NCBI GenBank assembly: GCA_000720535.1
Contig: JOAZ01000006.1
Span: forward strand, 1-64,000
Length of the DNA stretch: 64,000 nucleotides
Direction of reading: 5' to 3'
Source of the DNA: Streptomyces halstedii
GTDB lineage: Bacteria; Actinomycetota; Actinomycetes; Streptomycetales; Streptomycetaceae
Shown here: piece by piece, positions 58,563 through 64,000 of the stretch
Position numbering within the stretch: the first letter of the stretch is position 1
Layout of the letters: the number at the start of each line of letters is the position of its first letter
The notes under the pieces: model-generated
What the model was told of the DNA's origin: nothing
The model's input: only the letters and a program-made list of their open reading frames with translations
Databases searched by the model: none
Made by a program: the position numbers and the translations under genes

Positions 58563-61517
58563 ATGGATCGCGACAACGGACCTGGTGTGCAGGTTCCGGA
58601 GCAGGGCGCTCCGCGAGAGCGGGCAGTGGAGACCACCCTGCGCTTCGCGGTGCTCGGCCCCGTGCGTTCCTGGCGTGACGGCGAGCCCCTGCCGCCCGGT
58701 TCCCCGCAGCAACGGGCCCTGCTGGCCGCCCTGCTCCTGCGCGACGGCCGCACGGCCACCGCGTCCGAACTCATCGACGCCCTCTGGGGCGAGGATCCGC
58801 CGTCGCAGGCGCTCGCGACCGTACGGACCTACGCCTCCCGGCTCCGCAAGTCCCTCGGCCAGGACACCCTGGTCAGCGAGTCCGGGGGCTACGCGGTCCG
58901 GATACCGCGCGACACCCTCGACCTCACGCTCGCCCAGGACCGCGCGGCCGAGGCGGAGAAGGCCCGCTCCGCCGGGGACCGCGGCCAGGCCCGCGCGCTG
59001 CTCCGCGAACTCCTCGGCCTGTGGGACGGCGAGGCGCTCGCCTCGCTGCCCGGCCCCTACGCGGAGAACCAGCGCGCCCGGCTGGAGGAGTGGCGCCTCC
59101 AGCTCACCGAGACCCGGCTCGACCTGGACCTGGAGGCCGGCTGCCACGCGGAGGCCGTCTCCGAACTGACGGCGCTCACCGCGGCCCACCCGCTGCGCGA
59201 ACGGCTGCGCGAGCTGCTGATGCTCGCCCTCTACCGCAGCGGCCGGCAGGCCGAGGCCCTCGCGGTGTACGCCGACACCCGGCGGCTGCTCGCGGAGGAG
59301 CTGGGCGTCGATCCGCGCCCCGAGCTGGCCCGGCTCCAGCAGCGCATCCTCCAGGCCGACGAGGACCTGGCCCGCCCGGCCGACGACCCGTCACCGGCCC
59401 CCGCCCCCATCCGCCCCGCCCAGCTCCCCGCCACCGTCCCGGACTTCACGGGGCGCGCCGCGTTCGTACGCGAGCTGGGTGACCGGCTCGTCACCGCCGA
59501 GGGCTCGGTGATGGCGGTCTCCGCGCTGGCCGGAATCGGCGGGGTCGGCAAGACGACGCTGGCGGTGCACGTCGCCCACCAGGCCCGCCCGCACTTCCCG
59601 GACGGCCAGCTGTACGTGGATCTCCAGGGCGCGGGCGCCAGGGCCGCCGAACCCGAGACCGTGCTCGGTTCGTTCCTGCGCGCCCTGGGGACGCCCGACT
59701 CCGCGATACCCGACTCCCTGGACGAGCGGGCCGCCCTCTACCGCTCGACGCTCGACGGCCGCCGCATCCTGGTCCTGCTGGACAACGCCCACGACGCGGC
59801 CCAGATCCGGCCCCTGATCCCCGGCACCACCGGCTGCGCGACGCTGGTCACCAGCCGGGTCCGGATGCTCGACCTGGCCGGGGCGCATCTGGTGGACCTC
59901 GACGTGATGTCCCCCGAGGAAGCGCTCCAGCTGTTCACCCGCATCGTCGGCGAGGAGCGCGTCACCTCCGAACGCGAGGCCGCCCTGGACGTGGTGGCCG
60001 CGTGCGGCTTCCTGCCGCTGGCCATCCGTATCGCCGCCTCCCGGCTGGCCGCCCGCCGCACCTGGACGGTCTCGGTGCTGGCCGCGAAGCTCGCCGACGA
60101 GCGCCGCAGGCTGGACGAACTCCAGGCGGGCGACCTCGCGGTGAAGGCCACGTTCGAGCTGGGCTACGGCCAGTTGGAACCCGCCCAGGCGCGCGCCTTC
60201 CGTCTCCTGGGTCTCGCGGACGGCCCGGACATCTCCCTCGCGGCGGCCGCCGCCGTGCTGGACCTGGAGAGCCACACGACGGAGGACCTCCTGGAGTCCC
60301 TGGTGGACACCAGCCTCCTGGAGTCGGCGGCCCCCGGCCGCTACCGCTACCACGACCTGGTCCGGCTGTACGCGCGCGCCTGCGCCGAACGCGACGAAGA
60401 GCCCGCCCGGGAGCGGGAGATGGCGCTGTCGCGGCTGCTGGACTTCTATCTGGCGACCGCGGCGGAGGTGTACGCGCTGGAGCGGCCCGGCGACCGGCTG
60501 GTCGCCCACCTCCAGACGACGCGGTATCCGGGGCTCACCTTCGGCGACCGCCACGCGGCCCTGGACTGGCTCTACTCCGAGGCCAACTGCCTCCTGGCCT
60601 GCGCACAGCAGTCGACGGGTCCGCAGATGCTCCGCAGGGCGGTCGACCTCCTGTGGGCGTCGAAGGACCTGGCGGAGTCGGGCGCCAACTCGAAGCAGTA
60701 CGAATCGGCGGCGCTGACGACGCGGGACGCCGCCCAGGCGTGCGGCGACGCCCACGCGGAGGGGCGCGCCCGGACCACCATCACCAACGTCCACATCGTG
60801 GCGGGCCGGTTCGACGAGGCGGACGCCGAGGCGCAGCGGGCGATGCAGCTGGCGCGGTCGGCCGACGATCCGGTCCCCAACTGCTGGGCGCCCAACGACC
60901 GGGGCGTCATCGCCATCTACCAGGGGCGCCACGAGGAGGGCGAGCAGTACCTCCTCCAGGCCATCGAGAACTTCCGGGCCGACAGCAACGACGTCGGCCA
61001 GGCGAGCGCCCTGTGCAACCTCTCCCGGATCCATGTCTCCCTCGGCCGGATCTCCAGCGCGATCGAGCTCGCGCAGCAGGGCATCGACATCTACGACCGG
61101 ATGGGCCTCAGCCTCCGGCTGGCGAACGGCCGGTACGCCCTGGGTATCGCCCTGACCCGGGCGGGCCGGCTGCCCGAGGCGCTGAACCAGCTCACCGAGG
61201 CCCTGGCGCTCTTCCAGGACAACCGCCAGCCGCTGTGGGAGGGCGTCACGCACTTCCGGCTGGCGGAGGCCCATCTCGCCGCGCAGCGCCCCACCCTGGC
61301 CGCCGCCCACGCGGAACAGGCGATCGCGCTGCGCGGTATCGGCGGGGAGTGGCGCCGGGGGACGGTGCTGACGGTGCTCGGCAAGGCGCTCGACAGCATC
61401 GGCCAGCCCGACCGCGCGCGGGCCTGCTGGCACGAAGCCCTGTCCATCTACGACCGGTTGGGCGCGCCCGAGGCCGAGGAGGCCCGTCTGCTGCTGGCGC
61501 CGATGGCGGCGGCCTGA
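58563..61517 (+). CDS. AfsR/SARP-family transcriptional regulator
   Basis: The 984-residue regulator has an OmpR-like DNA-binding domain (about 20-110; RFAVLGPVRSWRDGEPL, then QQRALLAALLL), a bacterial transcriptional activation domain (about 115-260), a STAND/NB-ARC ATPase with P-loop GIGGVGKTT (from residue 324) and about seven TPR-like repeats (about 690-980). AfsR homologues integrate phosphorylation and activate secondary metabolism. ATG 58563 has GGGGG upstream; GTG 58626 is an alternative giving a shorter N-terminus. No biosynthetic cluster is adjacent, so its targets may lie elsewhere. A DNHAS-repeat peptide gene follows. Confidence 0.92.
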   Translation: MDRDNGPGVQVPEQGAPRERAVETTLRFAVLGPVRSWRDGEPLPPGSPQQRALLAALLLRDGRTATASELIDALWGEDPPSQALATVRTYASRLRKSLGQDTLVSESGGYAVRIPRDTLDLTLAQDRAAEAEKARSAGDRGQARALLRELLGLWDGEALASLPGPYAENQRARLEEWRLQLTETRLDLDLEAGCHAEAVSELTALTAAHPLRERLRELLMLALYRSGRQAEALAVYADTRRLLAEELGVDPRPELARLQQRILQADEDLARPADDPSPAPAPIRPAQLPATVPDFTGRAAFVRELGDRLVTAEGSVMAVSALAGIGGVGKTTLAVHVAHQARPHFPDGQLYVDLQGAGARAAEPETVLGSFLRALGTPDSAIPDSLDERAALYRSTLDGRRILVLLDNAHDAAQIRPLIPGTTGCATLVTSRVRMLDLAGAHLVDLDVMSPEEALQLFTRIVGEERVTSEREAALDVVAACGFLPLAIRIAASRLAARRTWTVSVLAAKLADERRRLDELQAGDLAVKATFELGYGQLEPAQARAFRLLGLADGPDISLAAAAAVLDLESHTTEDLLESLVDTSLLESAAPGRYRYHDLVRLYARACAERDEEPAREREMALSRLLDFYLATAAEVYALERPGDRLVAHLQTTRYPGLTFGDRHAALDWLYSEANCLLACAQQSTGPQMLRRAVDLLWASKDLAESGANSKQYESAALTTRDAAQACGDAHAEGRARTTITNVHIVAGRFDEADAEAQRAMQLARSADDPVPNCWAPNDRGVIAIYQGRHEEGEQYLLQAIENFRADSNDVGQASALCNLSRIHVSLGRISSAIELAQQGIDIYDRMGLSLRLANGRYALGIALTRAGRLPEALNQLTEALALFQDNRQPLWEGVTHFRLAEAHLAAQRPTLAAAHAEQAIALRGIGGEWRRGTVLTVLGKALDSIGQPDRARACWHEALSIYDRLGAPEAEEARLLLAPMAAA

Positions 61518-61647
61518 GCGCTGTCCGGCACCCGGCGGGCAGGGTCCGCTCGGGCCGTTCATCGTTCGTTTATCGCGGGGCGCGAGTCTGTACGTCATCG
61601 AGCCGTCGCGTCGGGGGGCAGGCGGATCGAGGGTGCGGCCGTCCCAG

Positions 61648-61709
61648 TAGGCTGAACGGCCCTGAGATGCCCGCTCGGAGATCCACGGGGGAATCGCCGG
61701 GCGGGCATC
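61648..61709 (+). promoter_or_regulatory. Promoter and structured leader of the DNHAS peptide gene
   Basis: TAGGCT at 61648-61653 serves as -10. The predicted transcript would contain GATGCCCGC (61666-61674) paired with GCGGGCATC (61701-61709), a perfect 9-bp stem with a 26-nt loop, ending 26 nt before the ribosome site. Confidence 0.45.
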
Positions 61710-61745
61710 GCCGACCTTGCACGGATTGACGAACGGGAGCTGACG

Positions 61746-61940
61746 ATGAGTGACAAGAAGAAGGTCAAGGACGACCTGCTCAAGCCGCAGGACAACCACG
61801 CGTCCGGCGCCGACACGGGTACCGCCACCACGCAGGACAACCACGCCTCCGGCGGCGGCGTCACGACCCTGGACAACCACGCGTCGGGTGAAGAGATCAC
61901 GACGATGGACAACCACGCGTCGGCTCCGACGCCCAAGTAG
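61746..61940 (+). CDS. 64-residue peptide with four DNHAS repeats
   Basis: ATG 61746 has GGGAG six bases upstream, and the frame is bounded by strong structures on both sides. The peptide has a charged start (SDKKKVKDDLLK) and four DNHAS units beginning at residues 16, 31, 43 and 55 (periods 15, 12, 12); the last two are preceded by TTL and TTM. No hydrophobic segment, cysteine or signal is present. Small DNHAS-like proteins occur in Streptomyces, some named sigma-like in databases as I recall, without known function. The array resembles multi-core precursor peptides, but no modifying enzyme lies nearby. Confidence 0.8.
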   Translation: MSDKKKVKDDLLKPQDNHASGADTGTATTQDNHASGGGVTTLDNHASGEEITTMDNHASAPTPK

Positions 61941-62000
61941 ACCTCACTCGACGGGGAACGGCCGCGGCGGCGCGGAGGGGGAGCCGTCGCGGCCGCCGCG

Positions 62001-62031
62001 TGTCCGCGTACGGCACTGCCGTACGCGGACA
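62001..62031. terminator. Bidirectional terminator
   Basis: TGTCCGCGTACGGC (62001-62014) is exactly complementary to 62018-62031 with a 3-nt loop. It lies between the DNHAS gene and the convergent secreted-protein gene. Confidence 0.8.
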
Positions 62032-62060
62032 TCCGCGTTCCCGCCGCCCCGTCCGCCGGG

Positions 62061-62579
62061 TCAGTAGCGCTGTTCCGCCCTGACCAGGCAGCGCTCCACC
62101 CGGGAGACCGCCTGGGGGTCGTCCATGCGGACCGACACGGTCCTGGACGCGCCGGCGGCGAGGGTGACCGCGGCCCTTCCGGTGTCCACCGTCGTGCCGG
62201 CGGCGTCGGTGAACGTCACGGACACGGCGTACGTGTGCGAGGTGGTCGCGGTCGAGCGGATCTGGACCGTGGCCGCCGTCACGGCCTTGCGTTCGCCCCG
62301 CGCGGGCTCGGCGCAGCGCAGGACCCGGACTTCCGGAGACCGGGAACCGGTCGAGGCGGTCGCCGTGGAGCCCGACGAGCGGTTGCCGCTGTTGCCGGAG
62401 TGGTTACTGTAACCGCCATTGCTCTTCTTGGAGTTGGAGCACCCACCGCCACTGGATCCGCTGCTTCCGCCACGGCTCTTCCCTCCGCTCGTGCCACCGT
62501 GGCCGGAGGTCTGGAAGCCGGTGAGCGCGAGCACCACCACGGCCAGTACCGCCGCGAACCTGATCCGTCGCCCCATCAT
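62061..62579 (-). CDS. Secreted Ser/Gly-rich protein
   Basis: The 172-residue protein has a signal peptide or anchor (MMGRRIRFAAVLAVVVLALTGF), then a Ser/Gly/Asn-rich stretch with a short Cys-containing part (GGGCSNSKKSNGGYSNH) and an Ig-like C-terminal half (VQIRSTATTSHTYAVSVTFTDAAGTTV). The latter resembles FxLYD-like extracellular beta domains. Start ATG 62579 is chosen for the signal peptide. Function unknown. Confidence 0.75.
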   Translation of the reverse strand: MMGRRIRFAAVLAVVVLALTGFQTSGHGGTSGGKSRGGSSGSSGGGCSNSKKSNGGYSNHSGNSGNRSSGSTATASTGSRSPEVRVLRCAEPARGERKAVTAATVQIRSTATTSHTYAVSVTFTDAAGTTVDTGRAAVTLAAGASRTVSVRMDDPQAVSRVERCLVRAEQRY

Positions 62580-63665: not shown

Positions 63666-64000
63666 TCAGGTCCGCGCCCTGCTCCCCGTGCCCGTGCCCT
63701 TCAGGGCGTCCAGCGCGTACACACAGCGGTCCTTGCTGCACGCGTACACCACACCCGCCTGAGCCACCGGTGAGCCGGTGATCTCGCCGCCGGTGGCCAG
63801 CTTCCAGCGGAGCTGGCCACCGGCGGCGTCCAGCGTGTAGAGCACATGGTCCGCCGAACCGAAGTGGACCCGGCCGTCCGCGACCACCGGGGCCCCCACC
63901 ACCTCGCCGCCCGCCGCGAACCGCCACTTCGGCGTCCCGGTCACCGCGTCCAGGGTGTACAGCGCGCTGCCGCTGCCCACATGCACGTTCCCGCCGGTGA
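63666..64000 (-). CDS. PQQ-binding-like beta-propeller protein, C-terminal part
   Basis: The gene continues past the window edge; about 111 C-terminal residues are seen. They hold three repeats of the type LYTLDAVTGTPKWRF, LYTLDAAGGQLRWKL and VYALDALKG, each with the DA-x-G-x-x-x-W signature of PQQ-like propellers. Streptomyces Ser/Thr kinases and secreted dehydrogenase-like proteins often carry such domains. A catalytic domain cannot be judged from the fragment. Confidence 0.88.
   Translation of the reverse strand, partial: TGGNVHVGSGSALYTLDAVTGTPKWRFAAGGEVVGAPVVADGRVHFGSADHVLYTLDAAGGQLRWKLATGGEITGSPVAQAGVVYACSKDRCVYALDALKGTGTGSRART

Follow-up and report, generated by a model that had tools for sequence, protein, structure and literature searches.

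What is a small protein that carries the same five residues four times over doing directly behind a regulator of the AfsR type? The question arises in a stretch of 64,000 nucleotides from Streptomyces halstedii (contig JOAZ01000006.1 of assembly GCA_000720535.1, positions 1 to 64,000), referred to here as the window, in which a plus-strand frame encodes 64 amino acids with four DNHAS units, here called cores. We describe this frame as the positional orthologue of afsS, and we report that the core residues of such proteins change together with residues in the C-terminal region of AfsR. AfsS is probably a multivalent cytosolic peptide ligand of the TPR sensor domain of AfsR, on which it would feed back positively. 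Two papers of 2024 leave open how AfsS acts (PMC10972967, which gives its mode of action as unknown) and whether the AfsR sensor domain has any ligand (PMC10936776); the role of a ligand is proposed here for AfsS.

The repeat gene behind afsR

The features on which the argument leans are the following, with AfsR residues counted from the ATG at 58563.

58563..61517, plus strand: afsR, 984 amino acids, with SARP, NB-ARC (NOD) and TPR domains (NF053617, 1813 bits against a cut-off of 1430)
60600..61514, plus strand: C-terminal region of AfsR, modelled as helical repeats; proposed receptor of the cores
60897..60899, plus strand: AfsR D779, which co-changes with core residue 2
61245..61247, plus strand: AfsR V895, which co-changes with core residue 5
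61746..61940, plus strand: afsS positional orthologue, 64 amino acids, four DNHAS cores (frame, profile match, own-genome match)
61791..61805, plus strand: first core, DNHAS
61836..61850, plus strand: second core, DNHAS
61872..61886, plus strand: third core, DNHAS
61908..61922, plus strand: fourth core, DNHAS
63666..63998, minus strand: C-terminal end of afsK at the window edge (NF053615 positions 705-808 of 809, E=5.3e-61; as the gene is a fragment here, the cut-off of 1300 bits is unreachable)

The translation of the small frame, MSDKKKVKDDLLKPQDNHASGADTGTATTQDNHASGGGVTTLDNHASGEEITTMDNHASAPTPK, has DNHAS at residues 16, 31, 43 and 55, with the spacings of 15, 12 and 12 that an initial annotation of the sequence had read in it. 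The gene order is afsR-afsS-afsK, with two unassigned open reading frames between afsS and afsK, which makes the small frame an orthologue of afsS by position: it lies directly downstream of afsR, with an afs box, and near afsK, as in S. coelicolor. In size, too, its 64 residues and four repeats correspond to an AfsS of about 63 residues with short repeats, that of S. coelicolor being described as a protein of 63 amino acids with three repeats of 12 (PMC2267785). Against NF053616, the NCBIfam model of AfsS, the frame scores 40.3 bits (E=3.5e-10), below the cut-off of 60; the AfsS label does not formally apply, and we therefore speak of a positional orthologue and not of a member of NF053616. 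That cut-off is passed in 18 of the 199 genomes searched (all kinships), and the model seems limited to one sub-branch, because the cores, which could be read in 17 of these 18, end in P in all of them. Many afsS genes have likely gone unnamed, given that 221 of the 228 loci examined have an AfsS-like repeat protein assigned after afsR. The initial annotation, which took the class to be possibly conserved but uncharacterised, was right about its conservation, yet the family is known, as AfsS. The S. lividans name for the gene of the S. coelicolor AfsS is afsR2.

No Pfam family was found for the frame at E<=1, and thus no sigma-family domain. A signal peptide, a membrane stretch or a cysteine is not visible in it by eye (no predictor was used); the initial annotation had likewise read it as hydrophilic and free of such features. 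Folded alone and without an alignment, the protein reaches a mean predicted local distance difference test score (pLDDT) of 56, which means low confidence except for a helix at residues 3-11.

The 228 loci come from sets of 80 (named), 30 and 118, with some species in more than one set. A chance frame was rejected, since repeat proteins of the same kind are conserved at this position. Seven loci do not enter the set from which cores were read: L044, L073 and L221 are at contig ends, no AfsS was found in L069 and L239, and in L206 and L222 the automatic pick was a secreted sibling, to which we return below. The analysis covers 203 distinct AfsS and 205 distinct AfsR proteins (the latter of at least 930 amino acids), the cores of 14 loci being assigned by eye. 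These AfsS proteins have 42-168 amino acids (median 62) and 2-8 repeats, with three in 101 of them and four in 71; both repeat number and core vary among homologues, a point that the initial annotation had proposed to check. The closest named relatives are from Streptomyces. Those nearest to the window, with AfsR 91-92% identical, are S. atroolivaceus, [Kitasatospora] papulosa, Streptomyces sp. HB132 and S. mutomycini, and the AfsS of all four also has DNHAS, in three or four repeats.

Of 40 additional AfsR-like loci, taken from multi-copy genomes, only 9 gave an AfsS in a pattern search; the AfsS partner accompanies true AfsR and not each paralogue. The loci L279, L280, L288-L292 and L294-L317 hold AfsR paralogues or relatives, some in tandem, with no AfsS behind them by pattern. 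By pattern within 900 nt, AfsS was likewise not found in three relatives from outside the genus (L326-L328, 46% identical) or in six deeper ones (L331, L332, L335-L338). Downstream of afsR in L339 lies an AfsS-like protein with two ERNQT cores; these resemble the Bacillus Phr pentapeptides, possibly by coincidence.

Uniform cores and their co-change with AfsR

Sorted by majority core, the 203 AfsS proteins fall into 72 types; the pattern [DNE]-x-H-x-x is followed by 186 of the proteins, and in the other 17 the His is replaced by A, G, N, S, P or Q. By a site definition blind to the majority core, every [DEN]xHxx site is identical in 178 of the 186 His-type proteins; when sites were shuffled among proteins in 1000 trials, the mean was 0.6 all-identical proteins and the maximum 4. 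Flanking residues agree far less within a protein (identity 0.20-0.54). Recent tandem duplication or gene conversion as the origin of the identical cores was rejected, synonymous identity within proteins being hardly above that between proteins: for Ala at core residue 4, the share of pairs with the same codon is 0.554 within proteins and 0.491 between them, and for all core codons tested the values are 0.783 and 0.758. Because synonymous codons are nearly as scattered within as between proteins, it is selection on the peptide that keeps the copies equal, and each copy must therefore fit one thing, which differs between species. That the core is uniform within a protein and varied between species, with its uniformity kept at the peptide level, looks new.

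The 205 AfsR sequences were aligned and a tree was built, and AfsR columns were tested for change on the branches of core change, by parsimony and with branches weighted by total AfsR changes. On this full tree, core residue 2 has 17 co-changes with AfsR 779 where 4.0 are expected (p=3.3e-8). Core residue 4 changes with AfsR 793, 785 and 823 (p=6.5e-7, 6.9e-7 and 7.4e-7), core residue 5 with 895 (p=1.1e-6), and core residue 1 with 852 (p=5.8e-5); these p values are nominal, and when multiplied by 2565 as a Bonferroni correction, the first five are still under 0.003. For changes of the whole core, the best 18 columns all lie after residue 700, a region with 227 of the 513 tested columns, and the signals cluster on one helix face of the TPR region. 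SARP and NOD give almost no signal, with 1 of 231 columns below 0.01. As controls on the same tree, none of 105 pseudo-traits taken from SARP and NOD columns reaches 1e-5 against the C-terminal region, and ten non-core (linker) residues of AfsS, together with repeat number, give nothing below 1e-4.

A second tree, from SARP and NOD only, gives core residue 1 with 852 (p=1.9e-13), core residue 3 with 844 and 794 (p=1.8e-9 and 1.3e-7), core residue 5 with 887 and 895 (p=4.4e-9 and 1.2e-8), core residue 2 with 779 (p=3.5e-6) and core residue 4 with 823 (p=1.2e-5), and here none of 104 pseudo-traits reaches 1e-5. The co-change of core residues with residues of the AfsR C-terminal TPR region also looks new; the match of AfsS to AfsR and the secreted sibling are both unreported in the titles and abstracts from a full-text literature search, with subscription papers outside its scope.

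The residues that pair are set out here as raw counts, uncorrected for relatedness, each fraction being taken over the sequences with the core residue named. Arg852 stands with Asp or Glu at core residue 1 in 167/167, and Lys852 with Asn in 29/38. At core residue 2, Asp779 goes with Asn (62/72) and His (6/6), Glu779 with Ser (21/26) and Gly (4/4), the larger Gln779 with Ala (8/9), Ile779 with Val (11/11), and Ala779 with the larger residues Met (11/11), Leu (7/9) and Gln (12/17). His at core residue 3 is accompanied by Glu794 in 177/188 and Tyr844 in 182/188, and a residue other than His by Lys794 in 17/17. Thr at core residue 5 occurs with Met895 in 115/117 and Ser887 in 109/117, Ser with Val895 in 28/31 and Asn887 in 27/31. 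The DNHAS of the window, facing an AfsR with R852, D779, E794, Y844, I785, G793, I823, V895 and N887, agrees with this code.

The pairs of core residue 2 with AfsR 779 and of core residue 5 with AfsR 895 recur in both halves of the tree and in 37 held-out loci. When the tree was split into halves of 103 and 102 sequences, 779, 823 and 895 ranked first for core residues 2, 4 and 5 in one half, and second, third and third of 478 in the other; core residues 1 and 3 did not replicate, or were not amenable, in the halves. The hold-outs were drawn from 47 further loci, with AfsS in 38 (14 of these 38 cores again assigned by eye), of which 37 are not near-identical to the training set, and the rules, one AfsR residue per core position, were fixed beforehand. 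The rule for core residue 2 is correct in 22 of 37 (majority guess 15) and that for core residue 5 in 32 of 37 (majority guess 23), each being the best of 273 single columns. In the 14 hold-outs below 85% identity, the rule for core residue 2 gives 6, the nearest relative 4 and the majority 3.

A proposed ligand of the AfsR sensor domain and its rivals

In the mechanism that we propose, AfsS would be a mostly disordered, cytosolic protein with 2-8 nearly always identical copies of a species-specific pentapeptide, each copy a ligand that fits a groove in AfsR's C-terminal TPR sensor domain. As a STAND-type SARP, AfsR would switch on afsS via the afs box, and AfsS would bind back to AfsR, its multivalence bridging or activating several AfsR protomers, in a positive feedback loop that would lock the cell into making antibiotics and into nutrient-stress expression. 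AfsS would then be an inducer made by AfsR's own target gene, with several keys on one string, and the best reading is that it supplies the inducer missing for the AfsR sensor domain. Physical binding, bridging and activation by AfsS are what we infer from the co-change and the peptide-level identity that we observe; the sign of the effect on AfsR is less certain. According to PMC2267785, actinorhodin is lost when afsS is disrupted, with phoRP and pstS disturbed in late growth, and is stimulated when afsS is overexpressed. The promoters of phoRP, pstS and glnR are listed as bound by AfsR (PMC10936776).

Several points weigh against this proposal. Core residue 3 has only 7 changes on the full tree, with no column below 8e-4, and the helix face {3,6,10,13,16,17} was picked after the top columns had been seen. 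The region after residue 700 includes the end of the arm domain as named in PMC10936776, in which 738, 741 and 742, three of the 18 best columns, fall when judged by an alignment offset of 9. On the SARP and NOD tree, columns below 1e-4 also appear for 4 of the 10 linker controls, down to 2.6e-6. AfsR 785 and 793, strongest for core residue 4 in the second half of the tree, come only 34th and 15th of 403 in the first. Among the hold-outs, 823 predicts core residue 4 in 25 of 37, equal to the majority guess (785 gives 29), and the rules for core residues 1 and 3 are no better than that guess. When the core is instead copied from the nearest relative, residues 2 and 5 come out right in 27 and 32 of 37, so that within groups of close kin shared history is at least as good a predictor as the rule; in the 14 hold-outs below 85% identity, core residue 5 is given by the rule in 9, by the nearest relative in 10 and by the majority in 9. 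The distant orthologues L282, L287 and L293 break parts of the code, and 31 of the 40 extra AfsR-like loci show no AfsS by pattern. As PMC10936776 reports, AfsR that lacks its TPR domain activates afsS in vitro, AfsS not being needed. An AlphaFold model of a read-through TPR-AfsS chain folds the TPR part well and leaves AfsS at pLDDT 22-55, with no confident docking; the putative binding of AfsS to AfsR is a deduction from sequences.

Of the other explanations, a reversed sign survives best, although it is unlikely: AfsS would be a decoy or anti-activator on the AfsR TPR domain, limiting AfsR in a negative feedback. The co-change data carry no sign, and inhibitor binding can hold STAND regulators inactive according to PMC10936776; however, the loss of actinorhodin on afsS disruption and its rise on overexpression are the opposite of what a simple inhibitor would do (PMC2267785). 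It is still less likely that AfsS has another target, as the "sigma-like" or DNA-binding regulator of the view in print, and that its match to AfsR is indirect, for example through a shared third protein. AfsS has been called sigma-like from residues of sigma domain 3 (PMC2267785) and is said to bind upstream of the act/red regulators (PMC6988585), but the pairing, core residue by core residue, is with one region of AfsR, SARP and NOD being nearly silent, and AfsS has no Pfam match and a low-confidence model with one short helix.

Very improbable, in our estimate, is an effect of linkage, with the 3' end of afsR and afsS transferred together and their shared history mimicking co-change. The full AfsR tree does account for the core changes better than the SARP and NOD tree (for core residue 1, 10 versus 31 changes), and the linker signals on the latter, a hint of shared 3' recombination, make it the weaker control, with room for such an event. 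Against linkage, the linker residues are silent on the full tree, the signals concentrate on one helix face, and the pairings are chemically sensible. The multi-core precursor of a ribosomally synthesised and post-translationally modified peptide, which the initial annotation had considered, can practically be dismissed despite its identical cores and variable linkers, since no export signal is visible in AfsS and no modifying enzyme occurs among the neighbours tested (a MerR regulator, afsR, the two unassigned frames and afsK).

The core variation matches AfsR residues, which speaks for a binding motif rather than a product, and the "polyvalent binding peptide" of the initial annotation is where the evidence leads. 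With AfsS as the ligand of the AfsR sensor domain, the co-change data offer one answer to both the action of AfsS and the ligand of AfsR, and they name the residues to swap; a known gene in unrecognised guise gains a putative mechanism that is directly testable. If it is true, a global antibiotic switch of Streptomyces would be a species-specific peptide lock, a foreign afsS would be predicted to work only in hosts that match the code, and designable peptides would offer a way to act on silent clusters.

The afsS leader, a secreted sibling and known systems

Upstream of afsS, the window has the following elements.

61557..61578, plus strand: afs box, two 11-bp direct repeats, GTTCATCGTTC and GTTTATCGCGG, matching the published consensus
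61603..61621, plus strand: conserved leader element CCGTCGCGTCGGGGGGCAG
61666..61709, plus strand: leader hairpin, conserved and covarying
61735..61739, plus strand: ribosome-binding site GGGAG, 6 nt before the ATG

The consensus of the afs-box repeat is given as CGTT(T/C)ATCGNN (PMC10972967), and a box is present in all 205 leaders compared (score of at least 11 of 16), 8 of 205 letter-shuffled leaders reaching 11. The initial annotation had credited the gene with a promoter, a structured leader, a ribosome site and a terminator of its own, and had suggested regulated expression behind an AfsR/SARP regulator. The ribosome site and the structured leader are borne out, and the conserved gene indeed stands under an AfsR-type box; as to the promoter, a scan for sigma-70 patterns found none, but the afs box is present. 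The terminator finds no support: a terminator scan gave no plus-strand site, and behind afsS, at 61941-62045, there are only two strong GC-rich hairpins (z score -4.28) without a T-run. Across 60 afsS leaders, the CCGTCGCGTCGGGGGGCA element is kept together with the hairpin, which has compensatory changes (one example pair is C-G in 28, U-A in 25 and U-G in 7), and the two are possibly a riboregulator of afsS translation. Rfam gave three matches on the leader (E 0.25-0.35), all far under the gathering scores and none credible. Between afsS and afsK, the minus strand at 62061-62576 encodes a Ser/Gly-rich protein with a hydrophobic start and no family at cut-off.

The comparison of loci also exposes an unnamed family of secreted peptides beside afsS. 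At a distance of 0.5-1.3 kb behind afsR, 40 of 265 AfsS loci have a small gene whose product combines a signal-peptide-like start with AfsS-like cores after it; this set was curated by hand, with 11 of 51 automatic candidates removed by eye as false, 2 near-duplicates dropped and 2 added. Among these loci are L051, L053, L061, L092, L110, L134, L138, L197, L198, L287, L329, L330 and L354. The cores come right after an A-x-A-type motif in 24 of the 40 siblings (simple pattern) and stand at the very C-terminus in 22, and three siblings run against Pfam and NCBIfam matched no family over cut-off. The commonest sibling core is one residue off the AfsS core of the same locus in 26 of 40, two off in 9, three in 4 and the same in 1; sibling sites have a mean distance of 1.48 to their own AfsS core as against 2.75 to random AfsS cores. 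Unlike in AfsS, all sites are identical in only 14 of the 32 multi-site siblings. Where sibling and AfsS differ at core residue 2, 4 or 5, the cell's AfsR is the better match for the residue of AfsS in 35 of the 49 comparisons, one of the other 14 being a tie. The siblings of L053 and L138 carry several different cores in one protein (DQHAT, DAHAT, DSHAS), all of them AfsS cores of other loci. A profile search of 61 genomes gave a sibling match at E<=0.01 in 19, and by coordinates the two strongest matches (E below 1e-17) and several weaker ones adjoin afsR. No sibling was found in the genome of the window itself by pattern search, by tblastn (best E 0.64) or by profile at E<=0.01. A tentative and rather doubtful extension is that antibiotic onset in Streptomyces works as a peptide lock and key, with AfsS as a cytosolic, multivalent and pheromone-like inducer of AfsR, with near-cognate pentapeptides, released by the sibling in a minority of species and usually different from the cell's own core at one residue, acting on the AfsR of neighbours or tuning the cell's own, and with AfsR as an actinobacterial peptide receptor with species-specific codes.

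Among known systems, the nearest is the AfsS of S. coelicolor, which is described, like the window protein, as small, behind afsR and with afsK nearby. It is transcribed from an AfsR-dependent afs box, to which the box in the window corresponds by sequence; the window protein differs in its DNHAS core, its four copies and its score below the NCBIfam cut-off. For the AfsR TPR domain, AfsR itself aside, the best sequence match and the best Foldseek E-value are to the TPR domain of LGN (GPSM2), which has been solved with several short-linear-motif peptide partners; LGN is a eukaryotic scaffold, unlike AfsR, and a common fold says nothing on a common function. The STAND activators MalT and GutR, which respond to a small-molecule inducer, share with AfsR the NOD plus a sensor and the use of inducer and ATP as described in PMC10936776, whereas the inducer proposed for AfsR would be a motif in the protein product of a gene that AfsR itself controls.

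The RRNPPA systems of Bacillota, such as Rap-Phr and NprR-NprX, also pair a TPR sensor of similar fold with an adjacent small gene that encodes a short peptide, and tandem pheromone copies exist among them (PMC11343458). In the afsR-afsS pair the TPR receptor fold is present and an adjacent exported propeptide is not, no signal peptide being visible by eye; unlike in RRNPPA systems, there is no secreted propeptide in AfsS, and a secreted sibling accompanies only a minority of loci. The receptor differs as well, AfsR being a SARP-STAND ATPase of an actinomycete, and if the proposed mechanism is true, signalling by peptides through TPR domains would extend to a large actinobacterial group.
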